From Ignavibacteriota bacterium (lineage in GTDB: Bacteria > Bacteroidota > Ignavibacteria > UBA10030 > SZUA-254), in NCBI GenBank assembly GCA_025358305.1, contig JANYJZ010000033.1, positions 124,001 through 188,000 of the forward strand: a stretch of DNA of 64,000 bases. The letters run 5' to 3'. Below the pieces are notes generated by a model, which saw only the letters and a list, made by a program, of their open reading frames with translations, did no database searches and was not told the origin of the DNA. Positions 58,916 to 64,000 of the stretch are shown here, piece after piece; within the stretch, counting starts at the first letter, position 1, and each line of letters starts with the position of its first letter. The translations under genes and the position numbers were made by a program.

Positions 58916-59911
58916 TCACTCCCCCGTCACGCTAAACACCGCACTGAGCCCGAACTGCAGGTTGAACCGCGATGTCTGCTGAATGCCGTGGACGTCCTGG
59001 TAGACCGGAAGCTGGAGGTTCGCAAAACCGGAGAACCCGTCGCCGAAGCGCACGTCGAGTCCCGGGGTGAGGAAGAGCCATGATCCGCCGGTATTTTCGC
59101 GCGGTTCGCCGGTGCTCCCGACGTCGGCGTAGTCCACGAACTTGCCATTGAGCTGAAGGAGGAAACTTACGTGCCGGCTCATTTCGTACGCTGTGCCGAG
59201 ATGCGCCTGGAAAACGGATCCGAACCGCCAGCCTCCAGGGCCACGGCCGTTCCACTGGACATGCACTTCCGCGATGAGAGGCAGCGCACTGTACTCGCCG
59301 GAGAGCGTCGGAACAGGCGCGACGTCCTGGCGGAACTGCAGTCCGGCGAAAGCGTCGGTGGATCCTGACCCGGGCTGGAGCGCGATCTCCGCCGTCTCAC
59401 CCTCCGCATTGGCGAAATCGGTCACGCCGGTCGGCAGCTTCACCCCTCCCAAGACGCTGAGTTCCGCATCTTCCGGGGCTCCCGGCGAGAGAAGCGAGAT
59501 CCTGCACGACGCCCGCACGTCCCCAAGCCCGCTGAAGTTCCACTGCTCCAACTGGTCCCCGCCCGCATCGTGGTGGATATGGCTGTGTTGTCTCCGGACG
59601 AAAGGGAGATCGATGCTCAGCCCAATCCGCTCGCTCAATCCCGCCGCCAGATGAAATGTTTCACGCTCGTTGATCGTCCGCACTTCGTCGTGGTCGTACC
59701 GGATCGCACCGACGTACGATCTCGATGAACCGACGTAGATCCTGTCCTGATCGATGTATTCGCGGAAGTACGAGAGCTGAAGTGTCCCCGCGCGGAGACC
59801 CCGCTGCGACGCCAGTGGGCACGATGCGGATCCGCAGCTCGCACAAAGAGGTGTCCGGGCCAGGACGGCTGCAAGAAGGAGATACAGTATGGTGCTTGAA
59901 GACGTTTTCAT
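58916..59911 (-). CDS. Outer membrane beta-barrel protein, transporter-like
   Basis: Signal peptide MKTSSSTILYLLLAAVLARTPLCASCGSASC; alternating amphipathic strands; RRQHSHIHHDAGG. Confidence 0.65.
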   Translation of the reverse strand: MKTSSSTILYLLLAAVLARTPLCASCGSASCPLASQRGLRAGTLQLSYFREYIDQDRIYVGSSRSYVGAIRYDHDEVRTINERETFHLAAGLSERIGLSIDLPFVRRQHSHIHHDAGGDQLEQWNFSGLGDVRASCRISLLSPGAPEDAELSVLGGVKLPTGVTDFANAEGETAEIALQPGSGSTDAFAGLQFRQDVAPVPTLSGEYSALPLIAEVHVQWNGRGPGGWRFGSVFQAHLGTAYEMSRHVSFLLQLNGKFVDYADVGSTGEPRENTGGSWLFLTPGLDVRFGDGFSGFANLQLPVYQDVHGIQQTSRFNLQFGLSAVFSVTGE

Positions 59912-60021
59912 AGAGCAGCGATCCTTGTCAAGGTACAGGGATGGGCGTTCGTTTCCCTGCAAGGGGGAACACTGCCGCCGCAGGGAAACGCGTCACGTGA
60001 AATGGTGGACCGGGGTCGGGA

Positions 60022-60564
60022 TCAGCTCAGGGGGGGGTGAAACACGCGGAATGAAACGCCGGCAAGGGCCTGAGCGCCCGCACACAGATGAAAGGCAACG
60101 AGCCGGGGTGAGGGGCCGATCAACGGTGCAACCAGCAGAGTGGTACATTCCTTCTGAAGGGCGATGCCGGAGCGGAGCCCACCCGCGGCGCACCCCATCT
60201 GTCCGAGCGTGCAGCCGCTTCCCTGATCCGATGAGCCGCTTCTGCCGCAGGAGGCAGACCCTCCGCCGGAACAATTGCATACCGAACCAGAACAGCGTTC
60301 GCAGCACTGCGCGGCTCCTCCGCCCCGGAGCTGTCCGACGCCCACGAAAACGTCCGTGAGGGGAATGCAGAACGCCGGAAACAGCAGAAGGATGGCGATG
60401 ATATGGGGTATGCGACGGGTCAATCGGATTGAAAATACGAATTTTGGCGAGCCATTCCAAATTCCGATAGTCCCTTTGAAGTCCCACGTCACGCCGTTCC
60501 CCAGGCCCTCCTGTGGACCGTCCGCCACAGGAATGGACGGTCGGAGCTTCCTCCAAGACGGCAT
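60022..60564 (-). CDS. Cys-rich envelope protein of unknown function, start uncertain
   Basis: Hydrophobic segment IPHIIAILLLFPAFCIPLTDVFVGVG followed by QCCERCSGSVCNCSGGGSASCGRS...GCTLGQMGC. A TTG at 60423 is a plausible start. Confidence 0.5.
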   Translation of the reverse strand: MPSWRKLRPSIPVADGPQEGLGNGVTWDFKGTIGIWNGSPKFVFSIRLTRRIPHIIAILLLFPAFCIPLTDVFVGVGQLRGGGAAQCCERCSGSVCNCSGGGSASCGRSGSSDQGSGCTLGQMGCAAGGLRSGIALQKECTTLLVAPLIGPSPRLVAFHLCAGAQALAGVSFRVFHPPLS

Positions 60565-60856
60565 TTCTCGGTTTTTTGCTCATGGGAGCGGTCGATCGCT
60601 TCCCGGGCAAGTTGGTACGCTCCTTGCAGGAGAAGGATGAAAGAACGAACCCGATCTTCTCTCAACCGGACCAATGACAACGCGATGTTTCTCTCTCAGT
60701 CCCATGATCATCTCCGCCGCCTCGCTCCCGGGTTGCATCCATTCTCCCAACTCCCCGGGGGCGGGAGGCGGAACCAATTGCTTCGCGTGTGCGACCATTC
60801 TCCACTGAACGCACGATTGATATGAACCACTGAAACGAAAAAGGATAACTGACCTC

Positions 60857-62112: not shown

Positions 62113-63296
62113 ACCGCAACCCTCGCATATCCGTGCGAACGCTCCTTGCCGCGCTCGTCCTCCTGTTCCTCTTAGGAGGCGTAACGCGCACTTTCGGCCA
62201 GGTGCACATCGCCGGTCAGGCCTCTGCCGCCTGGACCGCGTCCCAGCCCGGGCCTTCCCAGTACTCCTTCAACGACGGGAGAAGTACGTTCGGATGGCGG
62301 GGGGATCTGTTCGTCGATGCGGAGCTCTCCGACAACGTGCTCTTCCTCTCGAGCTTCCGGATGGATCAAGACCGGACGCTCAATGTCGACCTCTTCGTCC
62401 TGCGCGTGACCGATGTCCTCTCCCTTCCGCTCAATGTCGAGGCGGGCGAGACCGAGATCCCCTTCGGCAACCTCGGCGAGCGGCGGTATCCGAAAACGAA
62501 TCCGTTCCTCACTCTTCCGCTCGGACGCGAACATGCCACGACGCTCAGGAGATCGGATTACGAGATCTACTCGACCGATCCGCAATATTCCGCCGCGACG
62601 AACAACTTCCGGCTTCTCGACAGGGGGCTCTATGATCTTGGGTTCAAGGCGTTCGGCAGTGTCGGCGTCGTGGATTACGCGTTCGCCCTCACCAACGGGA
62701 TGCTGAGCTCGACGAGCACGTACGCCACCAACGGGCTCAACGGAAGCAAGGGGATCGGGAAGATCGCCCGGCTCTCCGTCACGCCCGTCATCGGCCTGAC
62801 CATCGGCGCCTCGTGGGCCAAAGGACCGTTCCTGAAGGACAGCTGGAATTCCCCCCAGGGATACCCGTATCCCGCAACGTACGATCCGCTGACGCACCAG
62901 CAGCGGACATTCGGCGGCGACATCGATTTCAGCTTCGAGCATTTTTCGTTCTACGGCGAGACCTTCTTCAACTCCTGGGATTTTGCCGATGAGTACGGCG
63001 CTTCGCTCGACGCATTCGGATACTCCGCCGAAGCGCGCTATACCATCGTACCGCGATTTACCGTCGGGGCCCGCGTCGGCGAGCTCCGGTTCAACAAGAT
63101 GTCGCGCAACATCTACGGCGTTCTCTCCTCACCGGAACGATGGGACCATAACGTGATGAGGGTGGAGACCGCGCTCGGGTACCGCGTGAGCCGCGAGATG
63201 CTTCTGAAGGCGGTCTATGTCTGGAACCGGACGTTCGGCCTTCCGAGCGATCCGCGCGACAATTCCTTCGGCGTGCAGTCGGTGGTGAGCTTCTGA
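62109..63296 (+). CDS. Outer membrane porin-like beta-barrel
   Basis: Signal-like N-terminus, barrel-like strands, C-terminal Phe (SVVSF); overlaps the cupredoxin gene by 4 bp. Confidence 0.75.
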   Translation: MNRNPRISVRTLLAALVLLFLLGGVTRTFGQVHIAGQASAAWTASQPGPSQYSFNDGRSTFGWRGDLFVDAELSDNVLFLSSFRMDQDRTLNVDLFVLRVTDVLSLPLNVEAGETEIPFGNLGERRYPKTNPFLTLPLGREHATTLRRSDYEIYSTDPQYSAATNNFRLLDRGLYDLGFKAFGSVGVVDYAFALTNGMLSSTSTYATNGLNGSKGIGKIARLSVTPVIGLTIGASWAKGPFLKDSWNSPQGYPYPATYDPLTHQQRTFGGDIDFSFEHFSFYGETFFNSWDFADEYGASLDAFGYSAEARYTIVPRFTVGARVGELRFNKMSRNIYGVLSSPERWDHNVMRVETALGYRVSREMLLKAVYVWNRTFGLPSDPRDNSFGVQSVVSF

Positions 63297-63306
63297 GGCT
63301 GCTCCC

Positions 63307-64000
63307 ATGAAATTCCGCAACATCATCCTCCTGTCGATCTCCGGCATCGTCTCTGGTCTCCTCATCGCGAGCTACCTCGTCGTCAATTACTGGACGAGTC
63401 AGCAGGTCGAGGCGAGGACCGCCGGGAACTTGCGGAGCCAGTACTCCACCCTGCGCGAACTCAACGCCTTGCGTCTCGAGGAGGTCGCGAAGTCGTGCCA
63501 GATCATCGCCGAGACACCGCGGCTGAAAGCGGTCGCGGAACTCGGGGACCGGAACACCATCCGCCAGCTTGCGGAGGAGCTCCAGCAGAGTACCCGCGCA
63601 GACCTGTTCATGCTGACGAACGTCCGGAACGAACCCCTCGTCCAGCTCGTCCACGGAGCACCTCGAATATTTTCACTCAATGCGATGCCGTCCCTCCGTC
63701 CGCCCGGACGCCCTGTCTCCACCGACGTCTTGAACCTCGACTCGATGGCGCTCCGGCTCGCCTCCGCGCCCGTCATCGTCGGCCCCGATACCGTCGGAAC
63801 CGTCACCATCGGCTTCGAGATCAGCGCTGCGGAGATGCAGACGCTTCGATCGATGACGGGAAGCGACATCCTCCTAGTTCCCTCGCCTGAATCCGGCGAC
63901 TCCCCTCTCTCCCTCTCCCTCCGGCGCGAGATCCTCGCCCGGGTCGCTCTAGCGCTCCCCGGCGCCGACAGCGCCGTCATCGTCGCGATTCCGACCTCCG
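63307..64000 (+). CDS. Membrane sensor with extracytoplasmic Cache-like domain, truncated by window end
   Basis: Open from ATG 63307 to the window end: MKFRNIILLSISGIVSGLLIASYLVVNYWTSQQVEARTAGNLRSQYSTLRELNALRLEEVAKSCQIIAETPRLKAVAEL...; absent from the ORF track because no stop is reached. Confidence 0.7.
   Translation, partial: MKFRNIILLSISGIVSGLLIASYLVVNYWTSQQVEARTAGNLRSQYSTLRELNALRLEEVAKSCQIIAETPRLKAVAELGDRNTIRQLAEELQQSTRADLFMLTNVRNEPLVQLVHGAPRIFSLNAMPSLRPPGRPVSTDVLNLDSMALRLASAPVIVGPDTVGTVTIGFEISAAEMQTLRSMTGSDILLVPSPESGDSPLSLSLRREILARVALALPGADSAVIVAIPTS

Follow-up and report, generated by a model that had tools for sequence, protein, structure and literature searches.

A conserved cupredoxin-porin-sensor operon with predicted sigma-54 targets in an Ignavibacteriota bacterium

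What does a blue-copper protein, encoded between a cytochrome and a porin, have to do with the sensor gene that follows? The question arises at the end of a 64,000-nucleotide stretch of DNA from an Ignavibacteriota bacterium (the window; positions 124,001 to 188,000 of contig JANYJZ010000033.1, G000:C18:124001-188000 in our numbering, in a 3.2-Mb assembly). A first-pass annotation, made from the sequence alone, had described a redox- or copper-related block there, comprising a Cys-rich protein, an outer-membrane protein (OMP), a cytochrome c lipoprotein, a cupredoxin, a porin and a Cache-like sensor cut off by the window's edge, and had suggested that the cupredoxin and porin feed a signal to the sensor. 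All of the open reading frames (ORFs) that it named are present where it placed them. We consider it probable that the genes from the cupredoxin onwards form a trans-envelope sensory operon, in which cupredoxin and porin provide the input, a kinase relays it to a regulator, and the regulator acts on sigma-54-dependent targets.

The operon and its conservation

The secreted cupredoxin (61405..62112, + strand) and the outer-membrane porin (62109..63296, +) are encoded by genes that share 4 bases (ATGA), and the sensor gene starts 10 nt beyond the porin gene in the same orientation, which bears out the layout first described. The sensor part occupies 63307..64000 (+) and the gene continues to G000:C18:189124, 1,124 bases beyond the window (positions 11307-13124 of locus L004; adding 52000 gives window positions). 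Read to its end, it encodes 605 aa with HAMP, HisKA and HATPase_c domains. The regulator gene starts 12 nt after the kinase gene (L004 13137-14534) and encodes 465 aa with the Pfam architecture REC-AAA-HTH_8 of the NtrC/AtoC type; the loop of the AAA domain reads GSFTGA in this regulator and GAFTGA in most relatives, and a sigma-54 gene is present in the genome. Regulators of the NtrC family attach to dyads upstream of sigma-54 promoters and use ATP hydrolysis to open the promoter. By domain make-up, promoter and dyad, the kinase and regulator are classified as an NtrC-type sigma-54 two-component system. The GGDEF/EAL output that the annotation had mentioned for some proteobacteria is not the one used in this genome.

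The cupredoxin matches Pfam Copper-bind (PF00127) with 28.6 bits against a cut-off of 21.2 (2e-6), and its C-terminal fn3_3/CarboxypepD_reg-like domain matches fn3_3 above cut-off (1.3e-6). Its type-1 copper ligands, H133, C169, H172 and M175 (pattern H...C-x2-H-x2-M), are invariant across 25 aligned homologues, a set that came almost entirely from a whole-protein search and lacks the bias of selection on the ligands. The same four residues are invariant in 80 further homologues, although the scan that yielded these used patterns over two ligand regions, so that invariance there is partly circular. Sequence matches in the PDB are copper nitrite reductases and plastocyanin. With its profile match and four ligands, the window protein is a cupredoxin and is predicted to bind copper.

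Sequence support for the porin is weak (Porin_O_P in 5 of 28, best 0.005). Its AlphaFold2 model is a barrel with a predicted local distance difference test score (pLDDT) of 87.9 and a predicted template-modelling score of 0.84, for which Foldseek returned OmpU, OmpT, OprP and others (best E 5e-14). As modelled, the product is a porin with a barrel of roughly 16 strands; it belongs to a conserved family that has no fixed metal motif. The Cache-like reading of the sensor has likewise held up. The window's own sensor gives no Pfam match to dCache_3 (PF14827), which is found in 30 of 43 aligned homologues, and a model of the homologue from L085, 39% identical to the window's sensor part, adopts a dCache fold (pLDDT 89.6). 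Its structural matches include the periplasmic domains of LuxQ, PctA, Mlp24 and DctB, with that of LuxQ (3c38) among the best (E 2.3e-8, about 15% identity).

The cupredoxin family is present in 86 of the 150 relatives searched, and among the best of the resulting loci the order cupredoxin-porin-kinase-regulator is kept in 19 from Ignavibacteria. A scan of 84,980 species genomes yielded 80 cupredoxin loci from Acidobacteria, Gemmatimonadetes, Zixibacteria, KSB1, Caldithrix, Krumholzibacteria and others in addition to Ignavibacteria, some of the last being from the same genomes as in the 150-relative search. Among the 48 loci that extend 2.5 kb or more to each side, 44 have both the porin and the sensor, detected with purpose-built profile hidden Markov models, next to the cupredoxin, and these loci were selected regardless of their neighbours. 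Judged from this survey of several phyla, the linkage of cupredoxin, porin and sensor is far beyond chance, and the three form the conserved unit that the annotation had supposed. Three Acidobacteria-like loci (L109, L127 and L148) are in records titled Bifidobacterium breve and Acidimicrobiia, and probably come from mislabelled or contaminated metagenome-assembled genomes (MAGs).

Exchanged outputs and predicted targets

Several loci couple the sensor to a different output. In three Ignavibacteria loci, the sensor is 37-38% identical to that of the window and the output is an unrelated PAS-HisKA-HATPase-REC hybrid, whose kinase identity is 31-33% compared with 51-63% for orthologous kinases. 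Hybrid kinases are also the output in Gemmatimonadetes loci, an adenylate/guanylate cyclase takes this place in L063-L067 (Pfam confirmation for three), and HD-GYP does so in L113 and L138. A GGDEF-EAL output lies directly behind the cupredoxin on Caballeronia, Comamonas and Novosphingobium plasmids (L078, L173, L174), usually with DUF3034 and truncated haemoglobin genes nearby; the proteobacterial "methylamine utilization" cupredoxins beside GGDEF/EAL sensors, to which the annotation had pointed, are real and related to the window cupredoxin. Across these gene arrangements, the constant part is the cupredoxin, an outer-membrane protein and the dCache-HAMP sensor, and the outputs are exchanged. 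Because sensor and cupredoxin are kept while outputs change, we place the cupredoxin on the input side, and this is the main argument for doing so.

As a separate observation, in L078, L172, L174 and L175 (Caballeronia and Novosphingobium plasmids), a group 1 truncated haemoglobin and DUF3034 stand beside the cupredoxin/Cache sensor, which is a GGDEF-EAL protein (truncated in L172). These neighbours hint at oxygen or nitric oxide in the signal.

Upstream of the operon in the window lies a predicted operator (upstream activator sequence) of the NtrC-type regulator, the exact dyad TGTGGaccgtccgCCACA (60512..60529, no strand), of the form TGTGG-N8-CCACA. It precedes by 83 bases a predicted sigma-54 (-24/-12) promoter, TGGTACGCTCCTTGCA (60613..60628, +; consensus score 15.4 of 15.8), behind which a c-type cytochrome lipoprotein of the PSCyt1 family with a CxxCH motif is encoded (60857..61303, +; Pfam PSCyt1 1.3e-6, above cut-off). 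The whole genome holds 3 exact copies of the dyad; the other two (on C8 and C19) lie within coding sequence and were rejected as operators and taken as chance.

The arrangement recurs in the 19 Ignavibacteria loci, in which a consensus scan found 13 strong -24/-12 sites compared with 2.95 in shuffled sequence. Most of the 13 sit just upstream of exported-protein genes adjoining the operon: the cytochrome c lipoprotein (here and in L038), CHRD-T9SS proteins (sorted by the type IX secretion system, T9SS; L044, L047, L050), small secreted cupredoxins (L046, L055, L056, L059; assigned by position), and in L039 either a T9SS protein that has Copper-bind domains or the small cupredoxin that precedes it. 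Homologues of the PSCyt1 lipoprotein adjoin the operon in related loci, several behind a sigma-54 site of their own.

With at most one mismatch, TGTGG-N8-CCACA occurs in 12 copies in 9 of 12 upstream regions (0.07 expected), and the N8 spacer is strongly favoured. Because the dyad was discovered in those regions, we tested it elsewhere. The exact dyad occurs 11 times in 273 kb of loci that have the kinase/regulator pair and is absent from 260 kb of cupredoxin loci that lack the pair. A joint pattern of dyad, 66-96 bases and -24/-12 element gave 11 matches in the 150 genomes compared with 1 for the reversed pattern used as control. Eight of these are on known operon contigs, two are elsewhere, and one is on a previously unseen contig (G084:C534), 55 nt behind a regulator gene of the operon's family; the only match in the window genome is at 60512-60626. 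These patterns suggest that the cytochrome lipoprotein, a real and adjacent gene that the annotation had counted towards the block, is better read as a predicted target than as part of the input.

Two side observations concern other joint matches. On G084:C534 (L203, 1501-3125), the dyad and promoter are followed by a CxxCH protein resembling a haem-carrying outer-membrane barrel. The two matches away from the operon, L204 (G048:C374) and L194 (G002:C12), each precede a lipoprotein-like gene and may be targets or chance.

In Acidobacteria, the regulator has a DNA-binding end that differs from the Ignavibacteria one, and a different dyad, TTACG-N5-CGTAA, follows closely on the regulator gene; 21 of 27 loci have it, with 30 copies in total (0.075 expected; the motif had been noticed on inspection of part of these loci before it was counted). 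Of the 12 exact copies in 373 kb, 11 lie just behind the regulator gene. A -24/-12 core of GGCA-N5-CTTGC-like sequence is present there in 22 of 27 loci compared with 1.0 expected. A first, stricter sigma-54 scan in Acidobacteria had given 2 sites against 6 expected, apparently missing these promoters because its score favoured T before GG and a longer consensus. The genes behind the dyad encode a COX2/CuA-like protein (CSExCGxGHxxM), a PSCyt1-like cytochrome lipoprotein, a DUF5777 barrel and a small cupredoxin. By sequence comparison, an operator, a promoter and redox-protein targets recur, with different sequences, in the two phyla. The CuA-like/cytochrome/DUF5777/cupredoxin set itself (L101, L110, L112, L122, L128, L139, L160) is a candidate new envelope electron-transfer pathway.

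What the sensor may read

In the mechanism that we favour, the periplasmic blue-copper protein and the outer-membrane porin would form the input side of the dCache-HAMP histidine kinase, which would phosphorylate the adjacent NtrC-type regulator. The regulator would bind TGTGG-N8-CCACA and activate the sigma-54 promoters of nearby genes whose products are exported redox or surface proteins. Its targets here would be the cytochrome c lipoprotein and probably, through a degenerate site, the 1093-aa T9SS-sorted protein with CarboxypepD_reg repeats (Pfam) encoded after the regulator (L004 14668-17949, past the window). The Cache domain would most likely read the cupredoxin's own condition (its copper loading or its redox state), or else some small molecule that the cupredoxin and porin handle. 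We favour the state of the cupredoxin because this protein is constant across outputs, the sensor has no conserved metal ligands, and the predicted targets are mainly electron-transfer proteins. Of the envelope electron-transfer or metal-sensing system first proposed, the linked unit is supported, and the largely redox-type predicted targets fit an envelope redox or copper signal; the Cys-rich/OMP pair is unrelated.

Several points weigh against this mechanism. The steps from kinase to promoter have strong comparative support, all of it from sequence, and we infer the feed from cupredoxin to sensor, any contact between the two included. Most of the genomes compared are MAGs. TGTGG-N8-CCACA was discovered in the same regions that supplied its first statistics, and the 150-genome search (with one new operon contig, G084:C534) and the control loci are only partly independent of them. 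The promoter of the 1093-aa protein is degenerate here (GA for GC). No conserved set of Cys, His or Met residues resembling metal ligands was found in the sensor alignment, and the sensor itself is for that reason probably not copper-binding. Its best structural matches are mostly small-ligand Cache domains, and the signal could therefore be a small molecule.

That last point leads to the main rival, a small organic ligand that the porin admits and the Cache domain binds directly, with the cupredoxin as an electron carrier of the ligand's pathway and outside the signal. The sensor model matches dCache domains that bind amino acids, dicarboxylates and uric acid, a porin without a fixed metal motif is nearly always present, and DctB-type kinases with NtrC-type regulators sense small ligands by this route. 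We nevertheless regard it as unlikely: no recurring catabolic enzyme was seen beside the operon, the predicted target genes encode cytochromes, cupredoxins, CuA-like proteins and surface proteins rather than uptake or catabolic functions, and the cupredoxin accompanies the sensor whatever the output, which is what one would expect of an input part.

A CusS/CopS-like copper homeostasis system with an unusual regulator, which would sense excess periplasmic copper and induce copper-binding proteins, would explain why cupredoxins and CuA-like proteins are predicted targets, but not why cytochrome c, CHRD and DUF5777 proteins are, since these are not copper-resistance gene products. The kinase falls below the cut-off of the copper-sensor family (CusS/CopS/SilS) TIGR01386 (123.7 against 292.55 bits), and no P-type ATPase, CusA-type pump or multicopper oxidase lies beside the operon here, which makes this reading improbable. 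An ordinary two-component operon that happens to lie beside unrelated envelope genes, common as such genes are in these genomes, is hardly credible, being contradicted by the presence of both partners in nearly all surveyed loci across phyla, the tight spacing with overlaps, and the conserved operator and promoter design.

More tentatively, and with rather less confidence than we have in the operon here, the locus may represent a widespread and undescribed sensory class. In it, a blue-copper protein would serve as a periplasmic signal subunit read by the Cache domain through contact, a porin would complete the envelope-spanning unit, and evolution would have joined this one input to five or more outputs (sigma-54 phosphorelay, hybrid kinase, cyclic-nucleotide cyclase, HD-GYP and GGDEF-EAL), often controlling exported electron-transfer proteins. 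In the parts of the open-access literature available to us, we found no description of a cupredoxin-porin-sensor module; the component families are known, and their combination, spread, output swapping and predicted regulons appear to be new. Cupredoxins are known as electron carriers. Because this one is the constant companion of the sensor across phyla, whatever the output, it may be an information carrier and, if so, would let copper or respiratory redox state be signalled across the envelope. With its predicted operators and promoters, the system is directly testable; these elements also give regulators and candidate roles to a large number of genes that lack a known function (those labelled "methylamine utilization", DUF3034, DUF5777, CHRD and PSCyt1).

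Neighbouring genes and known systems

The minus-strand pair beside the operon, an OMP with CASCGSASC and HSHIHH motifs (58916 to about 59911) and a Cys-rich ORF (listed at 60022-60564; translation from a TTG at 60423 would yield a shorter product in which a signal peptide is plausible), consists of real genes that do not travel with the operon. OMP homologues were found in 18 of 100 relatives and in none of the operon loci, and in G006 the homologue is on a different contig from the operon; we rejected the pair as part of the system. In L177 (943-2472) and L179 (287-1736), a gene for a small Cys-rich protein lies ahead of the OMP homologue and is read in the same direction, and no cupredoxin-operon genes were found in the examined flanks of either. 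The combination of a small, secreted Cys-rich protein and, after it, an OMP with CGxAxCPL behind its signal peptide (window 60022-60423 and 58916-59911, minus strand) looks like a conserved two-gene unit of its own. No tRNA or Rfam family was found in the window.

The same genome contains a cupredoxin paralogue within a bc1-like operon (L006 3643-11573, on C34) that encodes a CxxCH beta-barrel, an FAD/NAD-type oxidoreductase with ferredoxin motifs, a Rieske protein, cytochrome b and a multihaem cytochrome; L068 is arranged similarly. The paralogue was rejected as a member of the system, as no sensor or porin of the operon families adjoins it.

Among known systems, amicyanin and plastocyanin share the type-1 copper ligand pattern with the window cupredoxin, which falls below both equivalog cut-offs (23.3 against 110.2 and 21.6 against 87.85, respectively) and differs by its extra C-terminal domain. 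No mau or methylamine dehydrogenase genes were found among the operon's neighbours. Because the amicyanin score is below cut-off, that identity was rejected, and "methylamine utilization" is a label rather than a function.

The uncharacterised proteobacterial "methylamine utilization protein" pairs come closer, in that a gene for a related cupredoxin immediately precedes that of a dCache_3-HAMP sensor and a gene for an outer-membrane protein (DUF3034) is usually nearby. They differ in that DUF3034 (or DUF4394) and a truncated haemoglobin stand in place of the window-type porin and the output is cyclic di-GMP turnover, whereas the window operon has a kinase and a sigma-54 regulator.

AtoS/AtoC and ZraS/ZraR resemble the window pair in the architecture of kinase core and sigma-54 regulator (464.5 bits to the AtoC model, 206.4 to AtoS) and in their -24/-12 promoters with upstream dyads, as predicted here. 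The window pair is nevertheless below the equivalog cut-offs (714 bits for AtoC, 646 for AtoS) and differs in its sensor domain, its tie to a cupredoxin and a porin, its operator and its targets. LuxQ, whose periplasmic domain is among the structural matches of the sensor model, is a structural lead: it reads a partner protein in the periplasm, and we propose a comparable partner role for the cupredoxin. The window system has no LuxP-like binding protein; the cupredoxin would take its place, through an interaction that is hypothetical here.

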